From: Armatimonas rosea
Lineage (GTDB): Bacteria; Armatimonadota; Armatimonadia; Armatimonadales; Armatimonadaceae
Direction: 5' to 3'
Assembly (NCBI RefSeq): GCF_014202505.1
Contig: NZ_JACHGW010000003.1
Span: 310,001 to 374,000, forward strand
DNA length: 64,000 nucleotides
The position numbers and the translations under genes were made by a program. The notes below the pieces were generated by a model. The model did no database searches. It saw only the letters and a program-made list of their open reading frames with translations, and was not told where the DNA came from. This document shows positions 32 to 44,694 of the stretch, piece after piece; the stretch's first letter is position 1; every line of letters begins with the position of its first letter.

Positions 32-622
32 TTACGCCTTCTTGAAGCGCTTTCGAGCCCCAACCAGCGCGACGGGCAGCAGAGCGGGGAGGAGCTGCAT
101 CGTACCGGGAAGCTCCGGGGTGACAGCGGAAGCGGTATACAGCAAGGTCGCTGTGGAGTTCCGATTAAACGTGCCCGTCTCTAGGCTATTCAGCGTGACA
201 CCTACCGTCCCTTGTGAGAAGTGGAAGACCTGGGTGCCTCCACTGGTGATATCAAATGTAGGGGTAACAATGTCATTGACGGTGACACTCTGGCTGAAGC
301 TGTGGGTAACCCCATTGATCGCGACATCATGACTGAGTGTCTTGGACGCCGTGGTGTTGCTAAAGTCAAGCCCTAGGCTCTGGGTGCCACTGACAATGCT
401 GACAGTCTGGGTGACACCCGTGGTGAGCGTGAGATTGCCAGAGAGCCCAAGGAAGTTATAGATATCCTCCGACCAGGGGCTGTTGCCAGGGTTGAACTGA
501 AGGTTTGCGTTGGACGCGTAGCTGATCGTCAAGGTTTGCGCCTGTGCTACGTGGGGCAACACGGCGCTCCCAAGTAGCGTGAGAGCGAGGAGGGGAGTAC
601 GAAACGATTGTGGATCTTGCAT
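32..622 (-). CDS. Exported protein with ELPG-type PEP-CTERM-like tail
   Basis: The 196-residue protein has an N-terminal signal peptide (hydrophobic LLALTLLGSAVLP, cleavage likely after AQA near residue 28). A Thr/Ser/Asn-rich body with alternating hydrophobic residues follows, typical of secreted beta-sheet proteins. The last 30 residues form a sorting tail: PELPG, a hydrophobic stretch rich in Leu and Pro, then the basic end GARKRFKKA. This resembles the PEP-CTERM plan (motif, membrane segment, Arg cluster) with PELPG in place of PEP. The same tail ends three unrelated proteins here (3339-4154, 4388-5128, 43759-44694). By analogy it would be recognised by an exosortase; no sortase gene is visible. 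The body domain is not recognised. The gene diverges from the SARP-type regulator gene. Confidence 0.8.
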   Translation of the reverse strand: MQDPQSFRTPLLALTLLGSAVLPHVAQAQTLTISYASNANLQFNPGNSPWSEDIYNFLGLSGNLTLTTGVTQTVSIVSGTQSLGLDFSNTTASKTLSHDVAINGVTHSFSQSVTVNDIVTPTFDITSGGTQVFHFSQGTVGVTLNSLETGTFNRNSTATLLYTASAVTPELPGTMQLLPALLPVALVGARKRFKKA

Positions 623-805: not shown

Positions 806-3244
806 GTGTATCAGATTGAGCTTAAGGATGGCGTCCGTGTCCGCTACGAAGCGGTGACGGTTGAAAAGTTTCGCACACAGAAGGCAGTACGCCTACTGGC
901 GTATCTCGCATTTCATCCGGGAATGCACAGCCGGGATAGGCTCCTGGAGCTGTTCTGGCCGGAGCTCGAGCTAGACTCAGCGCGCAATGGGCTCTCGGCG
1001 GCACTGGGACACCTGCGCGTCCCGCTGGAGGATGACCTTGGCCAGCGACGAGGGAGCCTGATCCGGGCGACACGGGACTACGTGGGGCTACTGCCGGGAA
1101 GCTTTACCACGGACTTCGACACGATCCAAGACCCCGAGCGCTTCCTGCCGGGCTACTACGATGACTGGGTGCTGGAGGTCCGCGAGAAGCTCCAAGCGCA
1201 GCTCCGTCGGGTAACTCGTCCTGAGCCACGGGCGGCGGTTCCCACCCCGGAGGATCTCCCCGCCGATATCACGCCGTATCTGGGCCGGGAGGCGCTGCGT
1301 GAGGAGGTTCGTACGGTCTTGGCCCAGACCCGCCTGCTGACTCTGGTGGGGCCTGGGGGGATCGGGAAGACCCGGCTGGCCTTAGAGACCCTCCGGTCGC
1401 AGGTGGCGACGGGGGCACGTGTGGCCTGGGTAGAGCTCTCGTCGCTTACCGACCCGAGCGGGATTCCGGCACGGATCGCCGGGGCACTGGGGCTCAAGAG
1501 TGTCGAGGCGCTCATGCCCGCGCTACGCCAGGGGCCTGTACTCCTGGGACTCGACAACTGCGAGCATCTCATCTTAGGCGTGGCTCGCGAGACGGAGTCG
1601 CTGCTCAAGGCCTGCCCACAGCTCACGGTGCTTGCGACCAGCCGCGAGCCGCTTACCTTGGTGGGGGAGAGTGTCCTGCGCCTCCCAAGCCTCACCGAAG
1701 ACGAGGCTATCGCGCTGTTTTGTGACCGTGCCCAGCGTGCTCAGCGGGGCTGGCAGCTCACGCCTGAGCAGCGCCCACTCCTCACCCAGCTCTGGCGGGC
1801 GCTGGATGGTCTGCCCCTCGCGCTGGAGCTGGCGGCGGCCAAGCTACGCACCCTCCCGCTCCCGGAGCTGGTCGCACGGCTGGAGGCGCGTCTGGCGGTC
1901 CTGACCAGTGGGAGCCGGAGCGCCGAGCCACGCCAGCAGACCCTCCGCGCCGCGATCGCCTGGAGCTACGAGCTCCTCACACCCGAGGAGCGCCTGCTCG
2001 CCGTGCGCCTGGCGGTCTTTCAAGGAGGCTGGAGCCTGGCGCTGGCCGAGGCGGTCTGTGGCGGCGAGGGGATCTTGGAGGAGAGCCTTGCCGCGCTACT
2101 GGATAGCCTGGTGGACAAGAGCCTGGTCCACCTTGATTCTGTACACGAGACGACACGCTACCGGTTTTTGGAGACTGTCCACGAGTTTCTGCGCGGGCAG
2201 CTCGCCGCCCTTCCTACCCCGGAGCAGAACCGCCTGCACCACGCCCACTTTGAGACGCTCTTTGCCCTCGCTGCCGCCTACCCGGGACGCGATGTCGAGC
2301 CGCAGCGGCTCTGGGCACGCCACCTGGACCAAGAGGGCGACAACACGCGCCAGGCGCTGGCTTTCTGCTACGACCACGCGCAGGAGCAGGCGCTGGTGTT
2401 TTGTAACAACCTCCGCATGTACTGGCACCTGCGCGGCTTCTTCCAGGAGGCACGCCAGCAGTACGAGCTCGCCCTCGCGCTTCCGGGAGCGCAGGCACCC
2501 ACCGAAGATCGTGTCACCGCACTGCGCGAGCTCTCTAACTCCTACCAGGGCCTGGGTGACTGGGCCGCGGCGGAGGCGGTTCTCGATAGGCTGGCGGAGC
2601 TGAACCTGGCACTCGGGCAGCCGCTGGATAGCCAGACCTGCCGCGCGATGCTCGCCTTTAACCAGGGGGACCTCGACCGCTCCCGGCGGCTCTTTGAGGA
2701 GGTGCTGGCCTACGCTCGTACCAAGGGAACCCCTGCGGAGCGGGAGCACGCGACCACGAACATGATGCAGCTCCTGATGGCGCTGGGGGAGTACCCGGCG
2801 GTGCACGCGCTCCTCGACGACTACCGAGCGCACTTCAACGATCCCTTGGTCGTGACCCACAACCAGGCGCTCCTCGATTTGCTGGAGGGGAAGATACTGG
2901 CCGCAAGGACGGGGTTCCATGCGGTGTTTCCGATCCACAAGGACCTGGAGAGCCACCGGGATATCGCCTACTTGATTGTCCAGTTTGGGATGCTTGCTTA
3001 CCGGGAGGGGGAGCCCGAGCTAGCGGCACAGTTCTTTGGCGCGAGCGAGGCGTGGTGCGAGCACTACGGCTTCATCATCGAGCAGCCGGAGTTTGGGTTT
3101 CGCGAAAACGACCTCGCCGAGCTGCGGCGTCTACTAGGCGACGACGCCTTTGCGGCCCCCTTTGCACAAGGGCGTGCGCTAAAGCCCGAACACACCCTTG
3201 CGCTGATGGAGAGCAGGCTCTCTCACCGCGGGACGAAGCCATAG
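806..3244 (+). CDS. SARP/AfsR-like regulator with NB-ARC ATPase and TPRs
   Basis: A large (812-residue) STAND-type transcription regulator. Residues 1-100 form a winged-helix DNA-binding domain of the OmpR/SARP type (QKAVRLLAYLAFHPG, RLLELFWPELELDSARNGL). The segment FLPGYYDDWVLEVREKL resembles the start of a BTAD domain, which then looks cut short. The NTPase follows: Walker A GPGGIGKT near residue 182, Walker B-like LLGLDNCEHL, sensor-like LATSREP and GLPLALELAAAKLR. The C-terminal half is helical with degenerate TPRs. The start is GTG with AGGAG about 11 nt upstream. The protein would switch on target genes when ligand or partner binding allows nucleotide exchange. The helix-turn-spaced repeats upstream make it a candidate regulator of the neighbouring sorting-tail genes (inference). 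Confidence 0.85.
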   Translation: MYQIELKDGVRVRYEAVTVEKFRTQKAVRLLAYLAFHPGMHSRDRLLELFWPELELDSARNGLSAALGHLRVPLEDDLGQRRGSLIRATRDYVGLLPGSFTTDFDTIQDPERFLPGYYDDWVLEVREKLQAQLRRVTRPEPRAAVPTPEDLPADITPYLGREALREEVRTVLAQTRLLTLVGPGGIGKTRLALETLRSQVATGARVAWVELSSLTDPSGIPARIAGALGLKSVEALMPALRQGPVLLGLDNCEHLILGVARETESLLKACPQLTVLATSREPLTLVGESVLRLPSLTEDEAIALFCDRAQRAQRGWQLTPEQRPLLTQLWRALDGLPLALELAAAKLRTLPLPELVARLEARLAVLTSGSRSAEPRQQTLRAAIAWSYELLTPEERLLAVRLAVFQGGWSLALAEAVCGGEGILEESLAALLDSLVDKSLVHLDSVHETTRYRFLETVHEFLRGQLAALPTPEQNRLHHAHFETLFALAAAYPGRDVEPQRLWARHLDQEGDNTRQALAFCYDHAQEQALVFCNNLRMYWHLRGFFQEARQQYELALALPGAQAPTEDRVTALRELSNSYQGLGDWAAAEAVLDRLAELNLALGQPLDSQTCRAMLAFNQGDLDRSRRLFEEVLAYARTKGTPAEREHATTNMMQLLMALGEYPAVHALLDDYRAHFNDPLVVTHNQALLDLLEGKILAARTGFHAVFPIHKDLESHRDIAYLIVQFGMLAYREGEPELAAQFFGASEAWCEHYGFIIEQPEFGFRENDLAELRRLLGDDAFAAPFAQGRALKPEHTLALMESRLSHRGTKP

Positions 3245-3338: not shown

Positions 3339-4154
3339 TTAGGCCTTCTTGAAGCGCTTTCGAGCCCCGATCAGCGCGACGGGCAACAGGGCGGGAAGAA
3401 GCTGCATCGCACCAGGAAGCTCAGGGGTCACCGACGAGGGCGTTAGGGAGATATTCGTGGTGATCTTGATGTTCGAGCCCGATGTGTGGCGCTCGGCGGA
3501 GAAGAAGTCCAGCTTGTAGTTATTGCCTGCAATCAGACCCAGAGTATCCAAGTTTACGGAGGCACTTTCTGGTCCGTGCACACCACCCAGATCGATCACA
3601 CGATTGTTATTGATATAGACCCAGACATCGTCATCTCCGGTAAAGTCGAAGACTTGGCCCGTTTGGTAGGTAAAGGTTGTGTGGAGCTCAAACGTGAAGG
3701 CAAAGTTGTGTCCTCCCGACTGGTTGCCAAAACCTAATCCATCGATGGGGAAGAAGCTGGAGTTGTTGTACTCAAAGAGCCCACCACCAATGGGGTTAAA
3801 GAGGAGACTCGTGGAAAGGCTGACATTGACACCCGGCGTGTCGTTGTACCATTGGTTGAATGCCGCTGCGCCCGTGGTGGTAGCAGTGCCAGCAGGGCGG
3901 GTCGCATAGACAGGCTTGCCATCAACACCGAGGGTGCTGGTAACGATGCCATGGTCGTCGCCGAGGAAGCTCTCAAAGTCGGGGTGCCCGACGCCCGCGT
4001 TGCCGTTGTAAGTACCTGCGGCGGTGCCGGCGTAGAGAAAGTCTCGGACAGTTCCCGTGAGAGTAAACTGTGCGTGTGCCGTTGCACTGAGCAGGAGGGA
4101 CAGTGCCCCTAGAGAGCAAACGCGTGAAAATAGCGCAGTCCTGGATAGGTTCAT
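3339..4154 (-). CDS. Fibro-slime-domain exported protein with ELPG tail
   Basis: The 271-residue protein starts at the Met at 4154, which opens a clean signal peptide (MNLSRTALFSRVCSLGALSL, cleavage after AHA). Met further upstream would put a non-signal segment in front. The body matches the fibro-slime / PA14-like plan: residues about 140-230 include FDFTGDDDVWVYINNNRVIDLGG and YKLDFFSAERHTSGSN, the usual Ca/ligand-loop region. Such domains occur in secreted surface and matrix proteins that bind carbohydrate. It ends with the ELPG sorting tail shared by three other proteins here. A strong terminator follows. The likely -10 is TATAAC at 4215-4220 (minus strand). Confidence 0.85.
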   Translation of the reverse strand: MNLSRTALFSRVCSLGALSLLLSATAHAQFTLTGTVRDFLYAGTAAGTYNGNAGVGHPDFESFLGDDHGIVTSTLGVDGKPVYATRPAGTATTTGAAAFNQWYNDTPGVNVSLSTSLLFNPIGGGLFEYNNSSFFPIDGLGFGNQSGGHNFAFTFELHTTFTYQTGQVFDFTGDDDVWVYINNNRVIDLGGVHGPESASVNLDTLGLIAGNNYKLDFFSAERHTSGSNIKITTNISLTPSSVTPELPGAMQLLPALLPVALIGARKRFKKA

Positions 4155-4387
4155 AGAGATTACTTTCAGATAGATACTTTGGGTTTGGGCACTCTGCCCG
4201 GTCATGAGTTTGACGTTATATTCACACCGTGGTGTTTTTTACGGAGCGTACCGCCTCACCGCCCTCTCGGCGTTGATGCTTCCGCCCAGCATAGACTATA
4301 CCAATAATTCTTGGTCGAAACAATAAATATCATTATTAGTTTTGGTTTAGGGTTGGATAGGCTTGTTATTTCTCTGACCGCAGTGCC

Positions 4388-5128
4388 CTACGCCTTCTTG
4401 AAGTGCTTTCGAGCTCCGTTCTTGAAGCGCTTTCGAGCCCCGATCAGCGCGACGGGCAGCAGAGCGGGAAGAAGCTGCATCGCACCCGGAAGCTCAGGAG
4501 TAACGGAGGAGGGGGTGGAGACACCCTGCTGAAAGGCGACCTCACCAAAGCCGGTGAAGAGGCTGTGACCATTGTTCGAGGTGATACTCATGCGGAAGTA
4601 GCGATCTGTAGTGCTGGCAAAGCTAAACACTTGGGCGGGATTTGCAAAGGCAGCTCCGTTGGGGTCCACTGTGAAAGAGCCAAGGCTAGTGGCGCTTGTA
4701 AACGAGGAGTTGTCATCGGAGAACAGATTGAAGCCTGTTAGGCTGACAGGGTCAGAACCTCCCCAGTTCCAGACTGCAATCTTATCTAGGGTAACTAGGG
4801 AACCCATGTCGAAGGTCACGACACCGGTTTTATTCCCAAGGCCAGATGCCCATGAGGCACTACCTGCTGTATTGATAGCGGGTGAGTTGAAGTTGTGGGT
4901 TGCCGTACTCGTGAAGGTGGCAAAGTTGGTGACTCCCGATGTGTAGGTCGCACTCAGCCCCGACTGATTGATCAAAGAGTTTGGGGAGCCGAAGAAGGAG
5001 CCCATGTTTGTGGTGGCACTGGTCGCCCCTAAGATTGCTTGGGCACGGGCGGCTTGGGGGAGCAGAGCAAGGCTGAGTAGGGCTACCACGGGGGTGACAG
5101 GGAAACATTTCAGTCGAGAGATTGGCAT
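4388..5128 (-). CDS. Discoidin-like exported protein with duplicated ELPG tail end
   Basis: The 246-residue protein has a signal peptide (VVALLSLALLPQAARA, cleavage after ARA near residue 29). The body looks like an F5/8-type (discoidin) jelly roll: VTFDMGSLVTLDKIAVWNWGG, then FNLFSDDNSSF and a terminal FGEVAFQ. Such domains bind glycans or lipids outside the cell. The tail reads PELPGAMQLLPALLPVAL, GARKRF, KNGARKHFKKA: the basic end is duplicated, because about 23 nt of the 3' end is repeated in tandem (4391-4437). The upstream region carries the TCTGTAC-repeat promoter shared with the gene at 43759. Confidence 0.8.
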   Translation of the reverse strand: MPISRLKCFPVTPVVALLSLALLPQAARAQAILGATSATTNMGSFFGSPNSLINQSGLSATYTSGVTNFATFTSTATHNFNSPAINTAGSASWASGLGNKTGVVTFDMGSLVTLDKIAVWNWGGSDPVSLTGFNLFSDDNSSFTSATSLGSFTVDPNGAAFANPAQVFSFASTTDRYFRMSITSNNGHSLFTGFGEVAFQQGVSTPSSVTPELPGAMQLLPALLPVALIGARKRFKNGARKHFKKA

Positions 5129-6733: not shown

Positions 6734-6793
6734 TCCTTCCACACGTAGAATCAGCCCGCACGGCCTGAGGCACGTGTGGAAGGATTTTTGTTT
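6734..6793 (+). promoter_or_regulatory. Leader hairpin that hides the ribosome binding site
   Basis: Arms TCCTTCCACACGT (6734-6746) and ACGTGTGGAAGGA (6772-6784) pair perfectly over 13 bp. The 3' arm contains the Shine-Dalgarno sequence GGAAGGA, and TTTTTGTTT follows before the ATG at 6794. It could act as a translation switch, a leaky terminator, or both. Confidence 0.6.
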
Positions 6794-7522
6794 ATGAAAT
6801 GGATCTCGCAGGGGGCCGTACTCGGTGCACTCACGCTTCTGGCTCTCGTCCCTGCACAGGCGCAGAACCTCAACCCGGTACGCTCCGGCCTCTTTAATAG
6901 CTCCGGCACATCGGTTAACAACACACAGCCCGCCAACCAGTCGTACTTTGTCGGGCTGGAAGAGGGCAGTGAGCGGCGCAACTACTTTGTCTTTAATCTG
7001 ACGGGGATCGCGAGCCCCATTACCTCCGCGACCCTGCGGCTCTACAACCCGATCTTTAATCCTGATTCTGCCAATGGCTACTTTGGCGATGCCACCGAGA
7101 CCTACGAGCTCACCTCCACGACGGCCGATCCCACCGCCATCCAGGGGGCGTTTGGCCCAGGGGCAGCCGGCCAAGCGATCTACAACAGCCTCGGAACGGG
7201 CACGAGCTTTGGGAGCATCACGGCCTCGACCGCGAGCAATGGCCAGACCCTGACCCTGACCTTCAACGCCGCGGGGCTGGGAGCCCTCAATGCGGGAATC
7301 GGGGGGCTTGTTACCTTTGGAGGGCGGATCACCACTATCGTTGGGGGGGGCAACCAGTATCTCTTTAATGCCGTCGATCCCACGGGAGGGCTGCCCATCA
7401 ACGACACGCCGCCGGTTGTGCTGAGTCTGACGACCGGAGGCGGGGCCGCGCCCGAGCCGGGGACGATCGTCTTGCTCTTGGTAGGGGGGACTCTCACGCT
7501 GGTGAACCGCCGCAAGCGCTAG
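6794..7522 (+). CDS. PEP-CTERM exported protein
   Basis: The 242-residue protein starts at the ATG at 6794, with GGAAGGA 10 nt upstream and a direct run into the signal peptide (GAVLGALTLLALVPAQA). The body is beta-rich and Gly/Asn/Thr-rich (YFVFNLTG, SATLRLYNP), resembling DNRLRE-like structural domains. The C-terminus is a textbook PEP-CTERM signal: APEPGT, the hydrophobic segment IVLLLVGGTLTLV, then NRRKR. Exosortase would cut it and tether or release the protein in step with exopolysaccharide export. Its tail differs from the ELPG tails nearby. Expression may be gated by the leader hairpin. Confidence 0.85.
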   Translation: MKWISQGAVLGALTLLALVPAQAQNLNPVRSGLFNSSGTSVNNTQPANQSYFVGLEEGSERRNYFVFNLTGIASPITSATLRLYNPIFNPDSANGYFGDATETYELTSTTADPTAIQGAFGPGAAGQAIYNSLGTGTSFGSITASTASNGQTLTLTFNAAGLGALNAGIGGLVTFGGRITTIVGGGNQYLFNAVDPTGGLPINDTPPVVLSLTTGGGAAPEPGTIVLLLVGGTLTLVNRRKR

Positions 7523-8501: not shown

Positions 8502-9795
8502 TCTGGAACGGGTTTTGAGGGCGTGTTCCCGCAGGCGGCACCGAGATACGGGTGCTGAGCTGGTTGCCCTTGAGGTGGTTCTTATAGACCCGGATCGGAT
8601 GGAGGTAGGCGTACTTGCCATCGGGGCTCTTGACGAGGACACTGCAGGAGATACTGGACGCATCGCTCTTCTCCCAGGCCTTGTCAAAGTCGCTCCAGTC
8701 CCACGACGTCCGCCGCGCCCACTGGTCGTAGAAGCGCACCCCGAGCACGGTCTCGCCGGGGTTGTTGTTCTTCCAGATGCTCTTTAAGTAGGTCGAGAGC
8801 TCCGCAACATCAGCGCCAGTGTAGGTGCTGGGCTTGACCCGGTTCTTGGCGATCACTTTCTCCGCGGCCTTATTGACCTCCGCCCGAATCTCCTTGGCTC
8901 GTGCCTCTGCCTTGTCCGCGAGGGCGGTGTCTGCGCCGGGCACACCGGGAGCGAGTAGGCGGTAGTTCTCACAGCTGGTCTTGAGCCAGTGCTCATCGAG
9001 GCTATCGTTGAGGGCCAGGAAGTTCCCCGACTGAACGGCCGCTTTTCCCGCCTCCTCCAGCCGCTTTAAGAGCTCGTTGATCTCGTTGGGGAGGTACTTG
9101 GTAACCGCCTTCTCGTGCTGCTCACGAACGGTCGCCAGGGTGCCCTTGAGAGAGGCCGTGGCGCGCTTCATGTTGATCGCGTCCTCGCTCTTGGCATTCT
9201 TAAGGGGCTCGTAGACCTCGACAAGGCGCTGGGAGTCACGCTCAAAAGGCACGACCGTGGCGGTCTTGGCCGGGCTGTCGCGTGGGGAGAGGTTGCGGAG
9301 CCCATCGGCGAGCTCGGTGAGGGCCTCCATGGTCTTCTTATCCTTCGCGATCCCCGCCTCCAGCGCGTCGTTCTGGTCGCCGGACTTCTTCGCGTCGTCG
9401 AGCAGGCGCTGGCGGTAGTCGCCGAGCTGCTTGGCATCGGCCTTGTAGCGCTCGTGGAGCGAGGCAAACTCCCCGATCGCCGGCACCCCATGGAGCTCCT
9501 CGTCGGCGTCCTTGAGGTACTTCTCGATCTTGGTGAGCGTTGTCTCAATGCGTGTCAGCTCCGCGGGCGTGTTGAGCCCCCCCTTGCCATCGGCGCGCTC
9601 AAAGAGCTCCGCGACATCTTTGAGGTGGCGCTCCACGCGGTCTAGGTGGGTCTTGGCCTTGGAGATGCGAGTCTTGACCTCGTTGGTGACGGTGTTGTTG
9701 CCCAGCTTGGGAGGCTTGGGAAACTGCGCCCGGGCGGGAGCGAGGGGCGCTAGAGGCAGGGCAAGGGCAAGTAGAAGAAGAGAGCGGGTACGCAT
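8479..9795 (-). CDS. Exported coiled-coil protein, unknown
   Basis: The 438-residue protein has a signal peptide (SLLLLALALPLAPLAPARA, cleavage after ARA near residue 23). A long charged helical region follows, with heptad-like Leu/Ile spacing between residues 35 and 300 (ISKAKTHLDRVERHLKDVAELFERA, LTRIETTLTKIEKYLKDADEEL). The C-terminal part (residues 320-438) is more globular, with aromatic residues (FYDQWARRTSWDWSDFDKAW). No enzyme motif is seen. Its ATG overlaps the stop of the PEP-CTERM gene upstream (TAATG), so the two are probably co-translated. A periplasmic or surface structural role is possible. Confidence 0.7.
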   Translation of the reverse strand: MRTRSLLLLALALPLAPLAPARAQFPKPPKLGNNTVTNEVKTRISKAKTHLDRVERHLKDVAELFERADGKGGLNTPAELTRIETTLTKIEKYLKDADEELHGVPAIGEFASLHERYKADAKQLGDYRQRLLDDAKKSGDQNDALEAGIAKDKKTMEALTELADGLRNLSPRDSPAKTATVVPFERDSQRLVEVYEPLKNAKSEDAINMKRATASLKGTLATVREQHEKAVTKYLPNEINELLKRLEEAGKAAVQSGNFLALNDSLDEHWLKTSCENYRLLAPGVPGADTALADKAEARAKEIRAEVNKAAEKVIAKNRVKPSTYTGADVAELSTYLKSIWKNNNPGETVLGVRFYDQWARRTSWDWSDFDKAWEKSDASSISCSVLVKSPDGKYAYLHPIRVYKNHLKGNQLSTRISVPPAGTRPQNPFQIIPVANL

Positions 9796-10418
9796 TAGTT
9801 TTTCCCTCCACGCTTTCTTGCGATAAGTGCAACTCCACCGAGTAGGCCTAGAGCTAGCGCGCCCGGCTCCGGCGCGGCAGAGCCCCCCGACCCCACGGTG
9901 TACTGGAGATTGTCCACATTGAGACCACCCGGGCCGCTGTAGTTGTTGACCGTGAAGCGCAGGACATTGGTGCCCACCACAAAGCCTGAGGTCGTGCTGA
10001 AGCTGGTAAAGACCGTGAAGTTATCGACGGAAATACCAAGGTCGTTGTTGTTCAGAAAGACCGAGCCGATGTTATCGGAGGCAAAGGCACCACTGAGGGT
10101 GATCCCCGCGGCCACCTGAGGGGCAGTGAGGGTAAAGGTGGTGGTGAAATCCCGAACGCCGTCAAGGCTCCCGTCCGCGTTTAGCCATACCCAGCGGGAG
10201 GTGGCGCTCTGGACATAGGGGCCCGGTGTCTGGTTGTTGAGCACACGCGCCTTGGTTCCCTCAAGGTCGGTGTCGTAGTGTGGGTCGAGAGCCCCTCCGG
10301 CAAGAGGCACGCCCGCGGCATCGACGCCGGTACTAAAGAGGCTGATTGTCTGGGCGCTGACAGGGCCAGCTACCAGGCTAAGTACGAGAAGCAGGCTTCC
10401 AAGAGCAGGCTTTTTCAT
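9795..10418 (-). CDS. PEP-CTERM exported protein
   Basis: The 207-residue protein starts at the Met at 10418, preceded by AGGAG at a good distance and followed by a signal peptide (LGSLLLVLSLVAGPVSA). The body is beta-rich (SGAFASDNIGSVFLNNNDLG, FTVNNYSGPGGLNVDNLQY), similar to galactose-binding-like domains. The C-terminus is a standard PEP-CTERM signal: APEPGA, LALGLLGGVALIA, then RKRGGKN. It is the first gene of a two-gene minus-strand unit with the coiled-coil protein downstream. Confidence 0.85.
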   Translation of the reverse strand: MKKPALGSLLLVLSLVAGPVSAQTISLFSTGVDAAGVPLAGGALDPHYDTDLEGTKARVLNNQTPGPYVQSATSRWVWLNADGSLDGVRDFTTTFTLTAPQVAAGITLSGAFASDNIGSVFLNNNDLGISVDNFTVFTSFSTTSGFVVGTNVLRFTVNNYSGPGGLNVDNLQYTVGSGGSAAPEPGALALGLLGGVALIARKRGGKN

Positions 10419-10561
10419 AGTTGATTTTCTCCTGAATGTCACGGTGTGTGAACTGCCAGAGAGTGTAGGGGGAAGCAGACAGGGTGGCCAGTATGAAAAT
10501 TCAAGGGAGCGCTAGAGGGGCGTGGGCGACGTATGAATTCTGATACTGCGGGGTTTCGTGA

Positions 10562-43758: not shown

Positions 43759-44694
43759 ATGCAAATCTCTTGGACAAAACTTCTCGTCTCTGTAAGTGCG
43801 ATTGCCTTGCTTGGCCTTGTCGCACTGCCCAAGATGGCACTGGCACAGGACCTCTACGTTACAACCTTTAACAACGGGACCATCAGCAAGGTCACGCCTG
43901 GGGGAACCGTCAGCACCTTTGTCTCTGGGTTGACTCAACCGAACGGCCTTGCTTTCGATACGAGCGGAAACCTCTACCTAACGACCTATGGTGTTAATAG
44001 CATCTTCAAGTTCACGCCCGCAGGAGTCCAAAGCACTTTTGCCACGGGTGGGGGGCTGAATAACCCGTATGGCCTTGCCTTTGACACGAGTGGAAATCTC
44101 TACGCGGCGAACTTTGGTATTGCCAATGGTACTACCATCAGTAAGATCACTTCCGGGGGAACCGTCAGCACTTTTGCAACGGGATTGAGTGGCCCTGGTC
44201 GCATCGCCTTCGATAGTGCGGGAAACCTCTACGCTGCGAACTGGAACACCAATAGTATCCTCAAGATCACTTCCGGGGGAACCGTCAGTACCTTTGCTTC
44301 AGGGGGTGGGATACTGAGCCCCTATGGCCTTGCCATTGATAGTGCTGGAAACGTTTTTACCTCGAACTTTACTAGCGGCACCATTAGCAAGATCACTTCT
44401 GGGGGAGTGGTCAGTACCTTTGCAACGGGATTAAGTACTCCTGCGGGCCTTACTTTCGATAGTTTAGGAAATCTCTATGAAGCGGACTATGGCAGCAATA
44501 CTATCTTCAAGTTCACTTCTGCAGGAGTCAAGAGCACTTTTGCAACGGGGTTGAACGGCCCTACTGGCCTTGCCTTCCAGAGTGCCATAGGCCCTTCGTC
44601 TGTGACCCCTGAGCTTCCCGGTGCGATGCAGCTCCTTCCTGCCCTGCTACCTGTTGCGCTGATTGGGGCGCGGAAGCGCTTCAAGAAGGCATAA
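43759..44694 (+). CDS. Beta-propeller exported protein with ELPG tail
   Basis: The 311-residue protein starts at ATG 43759, followed by a signal peptide ending ALA-QD. Six repeats of about 40-46 residues share the pattern GTISKITSGGTVSTFATGLS, PxGLAFDSxGNLYAAN, as in NHL / virginiamycin-B-lyase-like propellers. The last 30 residues are the ELPG sorting tail, nearly identical in DNA to those at 4388 and 3339. The protein probably sits on or near the cell surface. Promoter and leader are shared with the discoidin-like gene at 4388-5128. Confidence 0.85.
   Translation: MQISWTKLLVSVSAIALLGLVALPKMALAQDLYVTTFNNGTISKVTPGGTVSTFVSGLTQPNGLAFDTSGNLYLTTYGVNSIFKFTPAGVQSTFATGGGLNNPYGLAFDTSGNLYAANFGIANGTTISKITSGGTVSTFATGLSGPGRIAFDSAGNLYAANWNTNSILKITSGGTVSTFASGGGILSPYGLAIDSAGNVFTSNFTSGTISKITSGGVVSTFATGLSTPAGLTFDSLGNLYEADYGSNTIFKFTSAGVKSTFATGLNGPTGLAFQSAIGPSSVTPELPGAMQLLPALLPVALIGARKRFKKA

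Follow-up and report, generated by a model that had tools for sequence, protein, structure and literature searches.

Why four genes with unlike bodies should end in almost the same C-terminal tail, and which enzyme might act on it, is the question raised by the window, i.e. the whole stretch of 64,000 nucleotides analysed (C3:310001-374000), which lies within the 6.3 Mb genome of Armatimonas rosea (98% complete). The tail carries PELPG where PEP would be expected, ordinary PEP-CTERM tails occur nearby, and an earlier note on this DNA had suggested that the two tail types are sorted by different exosortases. The window genes concerned are as follows.

32..622, minus strand: secreted protein of unknown fold with ELPG tail; tail module 32-133, tail match E 3e-14; signal-peptide-like start; no Pfam family above cut-off
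3339..4205, minus strand: fibro-slime/PA14 protein with ELPG tail; tail module 3339-3440, tail match E 4.5e-16; TIGR02148 E 9e-36, PA14 E 6e-11
4388..5128, minus strand: F5/8 type C (discoidin-like) protein with ELPG tail; tail module 4388-4513; PF00754 E 3e-5, 24.5 bits, slightly below the cut-off of 28.2
6776..7522, plus strand: ordinary PEP-CTERM protein, for contrast; tail 7448-7519; TIGR02595 28.4 bits (cut-off 16), 23.7 bits in another search
9795..10442, minus strand: ordinary PEP-CTERM protein, for contrast; tail 9810-9875; TIGR02595 16.2 bits, cut-off 16
43759..44694, plus strand: NHL/SBBP beta-propeller protein with ELPG tail; tail module 44593-44694, tail match E 4.5e-16; NHL E 1e-15, Vgb_lyase E 1e-21

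The tail and the proteins that carry it

The same tail of 33 residues (PSSVTPELPGAMQLLPALLPVALIGARKRFKKA or close to it) consists of VTPELPG, a hydrophobic stretch and RKRFKK, and ends the genes at 32, 3339 and 4388 on the minus strand and at 44694 on the plus strand, the last of which starts at an ATG at 43759 nested in a longer TTG frame. Three of the four tails are identical across 29 residues and that of the gene at 32 shares 90% with them; nucleotide identity between pairs is 85-93%, with the same codon at 15-22 of 25-28 agreeing residues, which bears out the near-identity in residues and codons claimed for these four genes. The gene at 4388 shows a tandem duplication of the basic end of the tail. 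The bodies are as unlike as had been described, the only match among them being a weak one (4388/43759, E 6e-5). A fifth ELPG protein, encoded outside the window, is truly related to 4388 (33% across 195 aa). The PEP-CTERM tails reported at 6776/6794 and 9795 are likewise real. Between two of the ELPG genes (window positions 806-3244) lies a large regulator-like gene (winged-helix, NB-ARC, TPR).

Genome-wide, nine PE[LM]PG C-termini were found as against 63 PEP-CTERM tails, so that the set of four in the earlier note, which had proposed collecting all such proteins, grows to nine genes: the four in the window, a tandem pair (C5a, C5b) at C5:38-39.5 kb, and more diverged copies at C2:1464353, C4:607204 and C5:106645, the last of which (C5x) reads PEMPG. 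The replacement of PEP by PELPG holds in a refined form, since in register the motif is PE-L-PG, i.e. PE-PG with one inserted residue. The DNA pattern PE-[ILMFV]-PGA gave 14 sites, eight of them tails and six dropped as being in the wrong frame or not C-terminal; the gene at 32, with PGT, falls outside the pattern. With a tail profile, ten sequences matched at E up to 0.1, of which C2:1284503 was dropped and the other nine are real. The E values of the six strong copies in this genome range from 3e-14 to 5e-16.

The model TIGR02595 (PEP_CTERM) yielded 68 matches at E up to 10 in the genome, 63 of them above the cut-off of 16, and none of the nine PE[LM]PG tails was among the 68. With five tail peptides as queries, neither TIGR02595 nor PF07589 matched at E up to 10, whereas a PEP control did match. 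By motif and by model the ELPG tail is thus no member of PEP-CTERM (TIGR02595/PF07589), the Pro-Glu-Pro being absent. Regarding architecture, a hydrophobic helix and a basic C-terminal cluster follow the motif in all nine tails (the basic end of C5x, RKHMGVA, is weak), and an N-terminal hydrophobic stretch with an AxA-type site was recognised in all nine proteins by eye and hydropathy (for the propeller, from the ATG at 43759). The composition of the nine bodies (S 10.1, T 12.1, N 8.0 and C 0.3%) equals that of 30 PEP proteins (S 9.6, T 11.7, N 6.8 and C 0.2%). The predicted features of the ELPG proteins, namely a signal-peptide-like N-terminus, a low-Cys, Ser/Thr/Asn-rich body and a PEP-CTERM-like tail, therefore appear to be those of PEP-CTERM proteins, and the tail is very probably an exosortase-type tail distinct from PEP-CTERM.

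A paralogue of the window propeller, encoded at C3:73565 and sharing 47% identity across 296 aa, ends in IPEPGTLALLCLGLAGGAVVRRRRK. A search of 12 family genomes with the propeller gave 11 matches including the query itself; among the ten others, all six readable ends were PEP tails (A. rosea 1, G001 1, G007 3, G011 1) and none was ELPG. Of the remaining matches, that in G009 was a frame without a tail near a contig end, two represented a single A. rosea frame without a tail, and that in G006 was left unread. ELPG and PEP tails thus substitute for each other on one type of body, and the tail is a swappable module.

Exosortases and the probable pairing of E1 with the tail

The earlier note had regarded a genome with only one exosortase as speaking against its proposal. 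This is not the case in A. rosea: five exosortase-like genes are present, three of them with an intact Cys-Arg-His triad as read from an alignment of 74 sequences.

E1, C5:102499-103443: 315 aa; PF09721 148.7 bits (cut-off 25.7), TIGR04178 60.7 (cut-off 23)
E2, C11:19.9 kb: fused to EpsI, triad intact
E3, C1:563.7 kb: triad intact
E4 and E5, beside E2: Cys and His lost

The triad of E1 stands in the contexts CSG, NAVR and VHD; the exosortase motif His-x-x-x-Gly, as published in PMC1569441, reads HDNEQ/HDNEE at E1, the Gly not being kept. E1 scored 100.7 with TIGR02602, below the cut-off of 105.55, and reached the cut-off of none of the exosortase subtypes named in NCBIfam (XrtA, B, C, D, V and W among them), the best scores being 109.4 with XrtA (cut-off 208), 104.3 with XrtW (425) and 103.5 with XrtV (313). 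The same was true of the named subtypes for its orthologue in G032. From family model and triad, E1 is predicted to be an exosortase belonging to no named subtype. An AlphaFold2 prediction for the G032 orthologue, made with one 94%-identical relative, had a mean pLDDT of 38.2 and was unusable; no solved relative was found by sequence (best E 0.7).

E2 has an orthologue of 76% identity in G001, a genome of the same genus, and belongs to a family clade of ten (support 100/100); this family-wide conservation suggests E2 as the natural PEP enzyme. Three PEP-tailed genes lie within about 8 kb of E3. In L019:5814-10633 (C11:13.8-18.6 kb), both E4 and E5 have behind them a smaller gene, EpsI-like or without a match, and then one of lipoprotein-like type. 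The two exosortase-like genes sit in a clade of eight, two members of which (G008, G010) still have the triad, and the active site seems to have been lost repeatedly in this clade.

The E1 locus is ordered epimerase, E1, EpsI, PMT-like membrane protein, PEMPG-tailed protein, Exo_endo_phos protein and SLBB export protein. E1 lies among exopolysaccharide genes (epimerase, SLBB/Poly_export) with an EpsI partner (E 1.5e-22), as looked for in an exosortase. The PEMPG gene C5x is 2.5 kb, or two genes, downstream of E1; no other tail gene was seen in the 19 kb around E1. Among 291 genomes of the phylum, close relatives of E1 were found only in A. rosea (G000), in G031 and G032 (51%) and in G057 (two genes, 42 and 51%), the next-best relative being 35% identical; the five E1-type genes form one clade (99/91). 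In G031 and G032, which belong to a distant genus, a PELPG gene lies directly upstream of the E1 orthologue and is the one credible tail match of each genome, beside 11 and 10 PEP matches, respectively, at E up to 0.3. Comparing the E1-neighbouring proteins of A. rosea with those of G031 and G032, the tails match, but the bodies do not. The partner genes that recur are the epimerase (49%) and EpsI (37%) in G032, and the PMT-like (39%) and SLBB (34%) genes in G057.

A tail search of the 291 genomes, with at most 27 candidates scored per genome, gave matches at E up to 0.01 in 19 of them, and on inspection a C-terminal PE[LM]PG was present only in A. rosea, G031 and G032. Of the matches dropped, some lacked the motif at a C-terminus (L087, L094, L097, L102), some had an internal APELPGA at a distance from the stop codon (L095, L098), some were PEP tails that the ELPG profile had picked up (L070, L071, L072, L074, L075, L089, L096), and L073 had only FLPALLPVAIMT without the motif. 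A candidate for the co-occurring exosortase that the earlier note had proposed to look for is therefore at hand: E1 is present in all three PE[LM]PG genomes, with a tail gene close by in each. In G001 neither E1 nor an ELPG tail was found, and there were 16 PEP matches. The chance that, in A. rosea, a tail among the nine would fall no further than 3.3 kb from E1 was 0.011, the corresponding figure for the tail neighbour in G032 was 0.0004 and that for co-occurrence by genus was 2.5e-4, all of these being rough, calculated after the fact and subject to the tendency of targets to sit near enzymes anyway. A wider search for E1 in 84,980 species with two short patterns returned three loci only, corresponding to G032, G031 and G057, which indicates limited sensitivity. 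A plasmid search gave 19 records, all below 60% identity (the five listed at 23-30%).

From neighbourhood and co-occurrence in only two independent genera, E1 is probably the enzyme of the ELPG tail. The reasoning is that made for the dedicated system of rhombosortase, for which PMC3237569 describes enzymes adjoining their target in most single-target genomes, and members of one protein family carrying different sorting tails. The GlyGly-CTERM/rhombosortase system resembles the present one in its many-to-one pairing and differs in its motif and in its enzyme, an unrelated rhomboid protease. Closer is PEP-CTERM/exosortase (EpsH) (TIGR02595, PF09721; PMC1569441), with the same signal peptide, C-terminal motif, hydrophobic stretch and basic end, many unrelated Ser/Thr/Asn-rich bodies, and a Cys/Arg/His exosortase with EpsI in an exopolysaccharide locus. 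That source also describes species-specific tail clades and rapid expansion of tail families. In contrast to PEP-CTERM, the present system has PE[LM]PG, matches no PEP-CTERM model, has an exosortase under all named subtype cut-offs and has one tail copied at codon level among unrelated genes. As in XrtC/VPDSG-CTERM and XrtD/VPLPA-CTERM (NCBIfam names), one exosortase subtype would go with its own tail spelling; E1, however, scores 42 and 102 bits against the XrtC and XrtD cut-offs of 300 and 400, and the tail motif differs. By analogy, E1 and the ELPG tail may work like these known variant pairs. No paper on a PELPG tail or on PEP-CTERM in Armatimonas was found in a literature search with most subscription journals outside its coverage.

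One or two channels

A second exosortase channel, in which E1 would cut PE[LM]PG tails and E2 and/or E3 would cut PEP tails, is given a probability of roughly 70%. The suggestion that two tail types are sorted by different exosortases has thereby gained a candidate partner, and is limited by two sets of facts. G057 has two E1-type genes, yet two profiles found no credible PE[LM]PG tail there. Conversely, tails reading PELPP, PELPS, PELSS or PELSP occur in G253, G254, G256 (f41), G270 (f43), G276, G277, G282 and G283 (f45), all of which lack E1. Exosortases of six of these eight genomes (G253, G254, G256, G270, G276, G282) were included in the tree: each of the six has one in a clade of its own kind with 13 members (100/98), and G253, G276 and G282 have second copies that group with E3. 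Either several enzyme lineages go with Leu after Pro-Glu, or the enzymes are less choosy than proposed.

The PELPP/PELPS/PELSS-type tails (L083, L084, L088, L091, L092, L093, L099-L101, L103-L106, L082, L085), also apart from the PEP-CTERM spelling, are possibly further unmodelled tail types. The E1-type exosortases of G057 (L186, L187) are fused to EpsI, and neither PEP nor ELPG tails were found in that genome.

Another reading is that ELPG is a relaxed spelling of PEP-CTERM, with the housekeeping exosortase E2 (or E3) processing both tails, near-identity reflecting recent tail duplication, and E1 serving at most its neighbour. The PEL-type tails without E1 suggest that other exosortases may accept Leu after Pro-Glu; ELPG and PEP genes are intermixed in one C5 cluster; and the tail that belongs to the E1 cassette (C5x) shares only 44% identity with the main ELPG form, the eight tails outside the cassette not being specially close to it. 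Such a reading is nevertheless unlikely, given that E2 is family-wide and that ELPG tails are absent from G001, which has E2 and 16 PEP tails, that PE[LM]PG was found only alongside E1, and that even at E 10 none of the tail models in NCBIfam matched the main ELPG tail, although the PEP control did find a match.

That the tail is a plain uncut membrane anchor spread by recombination, the proteins being kept in the inner membrane, is improbable. A hydrophobic stretch and a basic end suffice for anchoring, but an anchor needs no conserved PE[LM]PG, and the motif is kept in the diverged C2, C4 and C5x copies and in G031 and G032; moreover, the same body swaps ELPG for PEP tails, a tail gene adjoins E1, and body composition matches that of PEP proteins.

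Under the two-channel reading, the signal peptide would export the protein, the hydrophobic tail and basic end would hold it in the inner membrane, and the PE[LM]PG motif, placed at the outer face of that membrane, would be cut by E1 with its EpsI partner. The freed protein would move on towards the exopolysaccharide or the cell surface, while the 63 PEP tails would be served by the family-wide fused exosortase E2 and/or by E3.

Spread of the tail and origin of the cassette

At agreeing residues, the six near-identical copies of the tail share their codons with a frequency of 0.667, whereas 0.343 is expected from codon usage (sd 0.029, maximum 0.449 of 2000 simulations) and 0.361 was observed in 15 PEP pairs of at least 75% residue identity, drawn from 30 of the 63 PEP tails. 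Within the module, nucleotide identity averages 0.87 over the pairs of copies; it drops to 0.32 in the 16 codons upstream. Because codon agreement exceeds chance and identity ends at the linker, the tail was copied as DNA; it has spread between genes as a DNA piece. Convergence by selection on residues, without DNA copying, is highly improbable: the diverged copies do conserve residues as well, but synonymous codons would not be kept at the agreement observed, nor would C5a and C5b share 171 nt at 89%, running through the terminator.

In the seven genes of the cassette, GC is 46-53% and GC3 is 0.40-0.55, whereas the two flanking genes have a GC of 0.61 and 0.64 and a GC3 of 0.66 and 0.84; other A. 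rosea loci taken for comparison have 61-65% GC. E1 was not found in 11 other family genomes. The low-GC exopolysaccharide cassette with E1 was probably gained laterally. GC3 of the tailed-gene bodies was 0.54 (43759), 0.58 (C5a), 0.49 (C5b), 0.46 (C5x) and 0.62-0.76 (other five); 30 PEP genes had a GC3 of 0.746 (sd 0.093). E1 probably arrived in this cassette along with one dedicated PEMPG client, and the PELPG form would have spread onto unrelated resident genes, the propeller included, by in-frame copying of the 3' end. The further proposal, that the acquired cassette opened a parallel sorting channel and drew resident proteins off the PEP channel by tail copying, the swap of one 34-codon module giving a new address, is tentative, the odds being somewhat against it.

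If the proposal is true, one genome combines two tail types on homologous propellers with three intact exosortases, and in another genus the same enzyme-tail pair exists in a natural form with a single target. Tail swaps could then test directly how the exosortases that share a cell distinguish their clients, and a sorting signal would have been seen moving between genes as a DNA module.

An insertion sequence was considered as carrier of the tail and rejected: one IS-like element abuts the C5a start codon and not the tail, so that the spread of the tail is not explained by it. This element (L017:6447-7489) has inverted repeats of 25 nt and a DDE transposase that is split, and its right end reaches the C5a start codon; it parts C5a from an upstream stretch still present at C5b (68 nt repeat, 84%). 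In the surrounding region (L017:3682-9518), three genes with PEP tails and two with ELPG tails are clustered in tandem, and their signal-peptide regions are similar.
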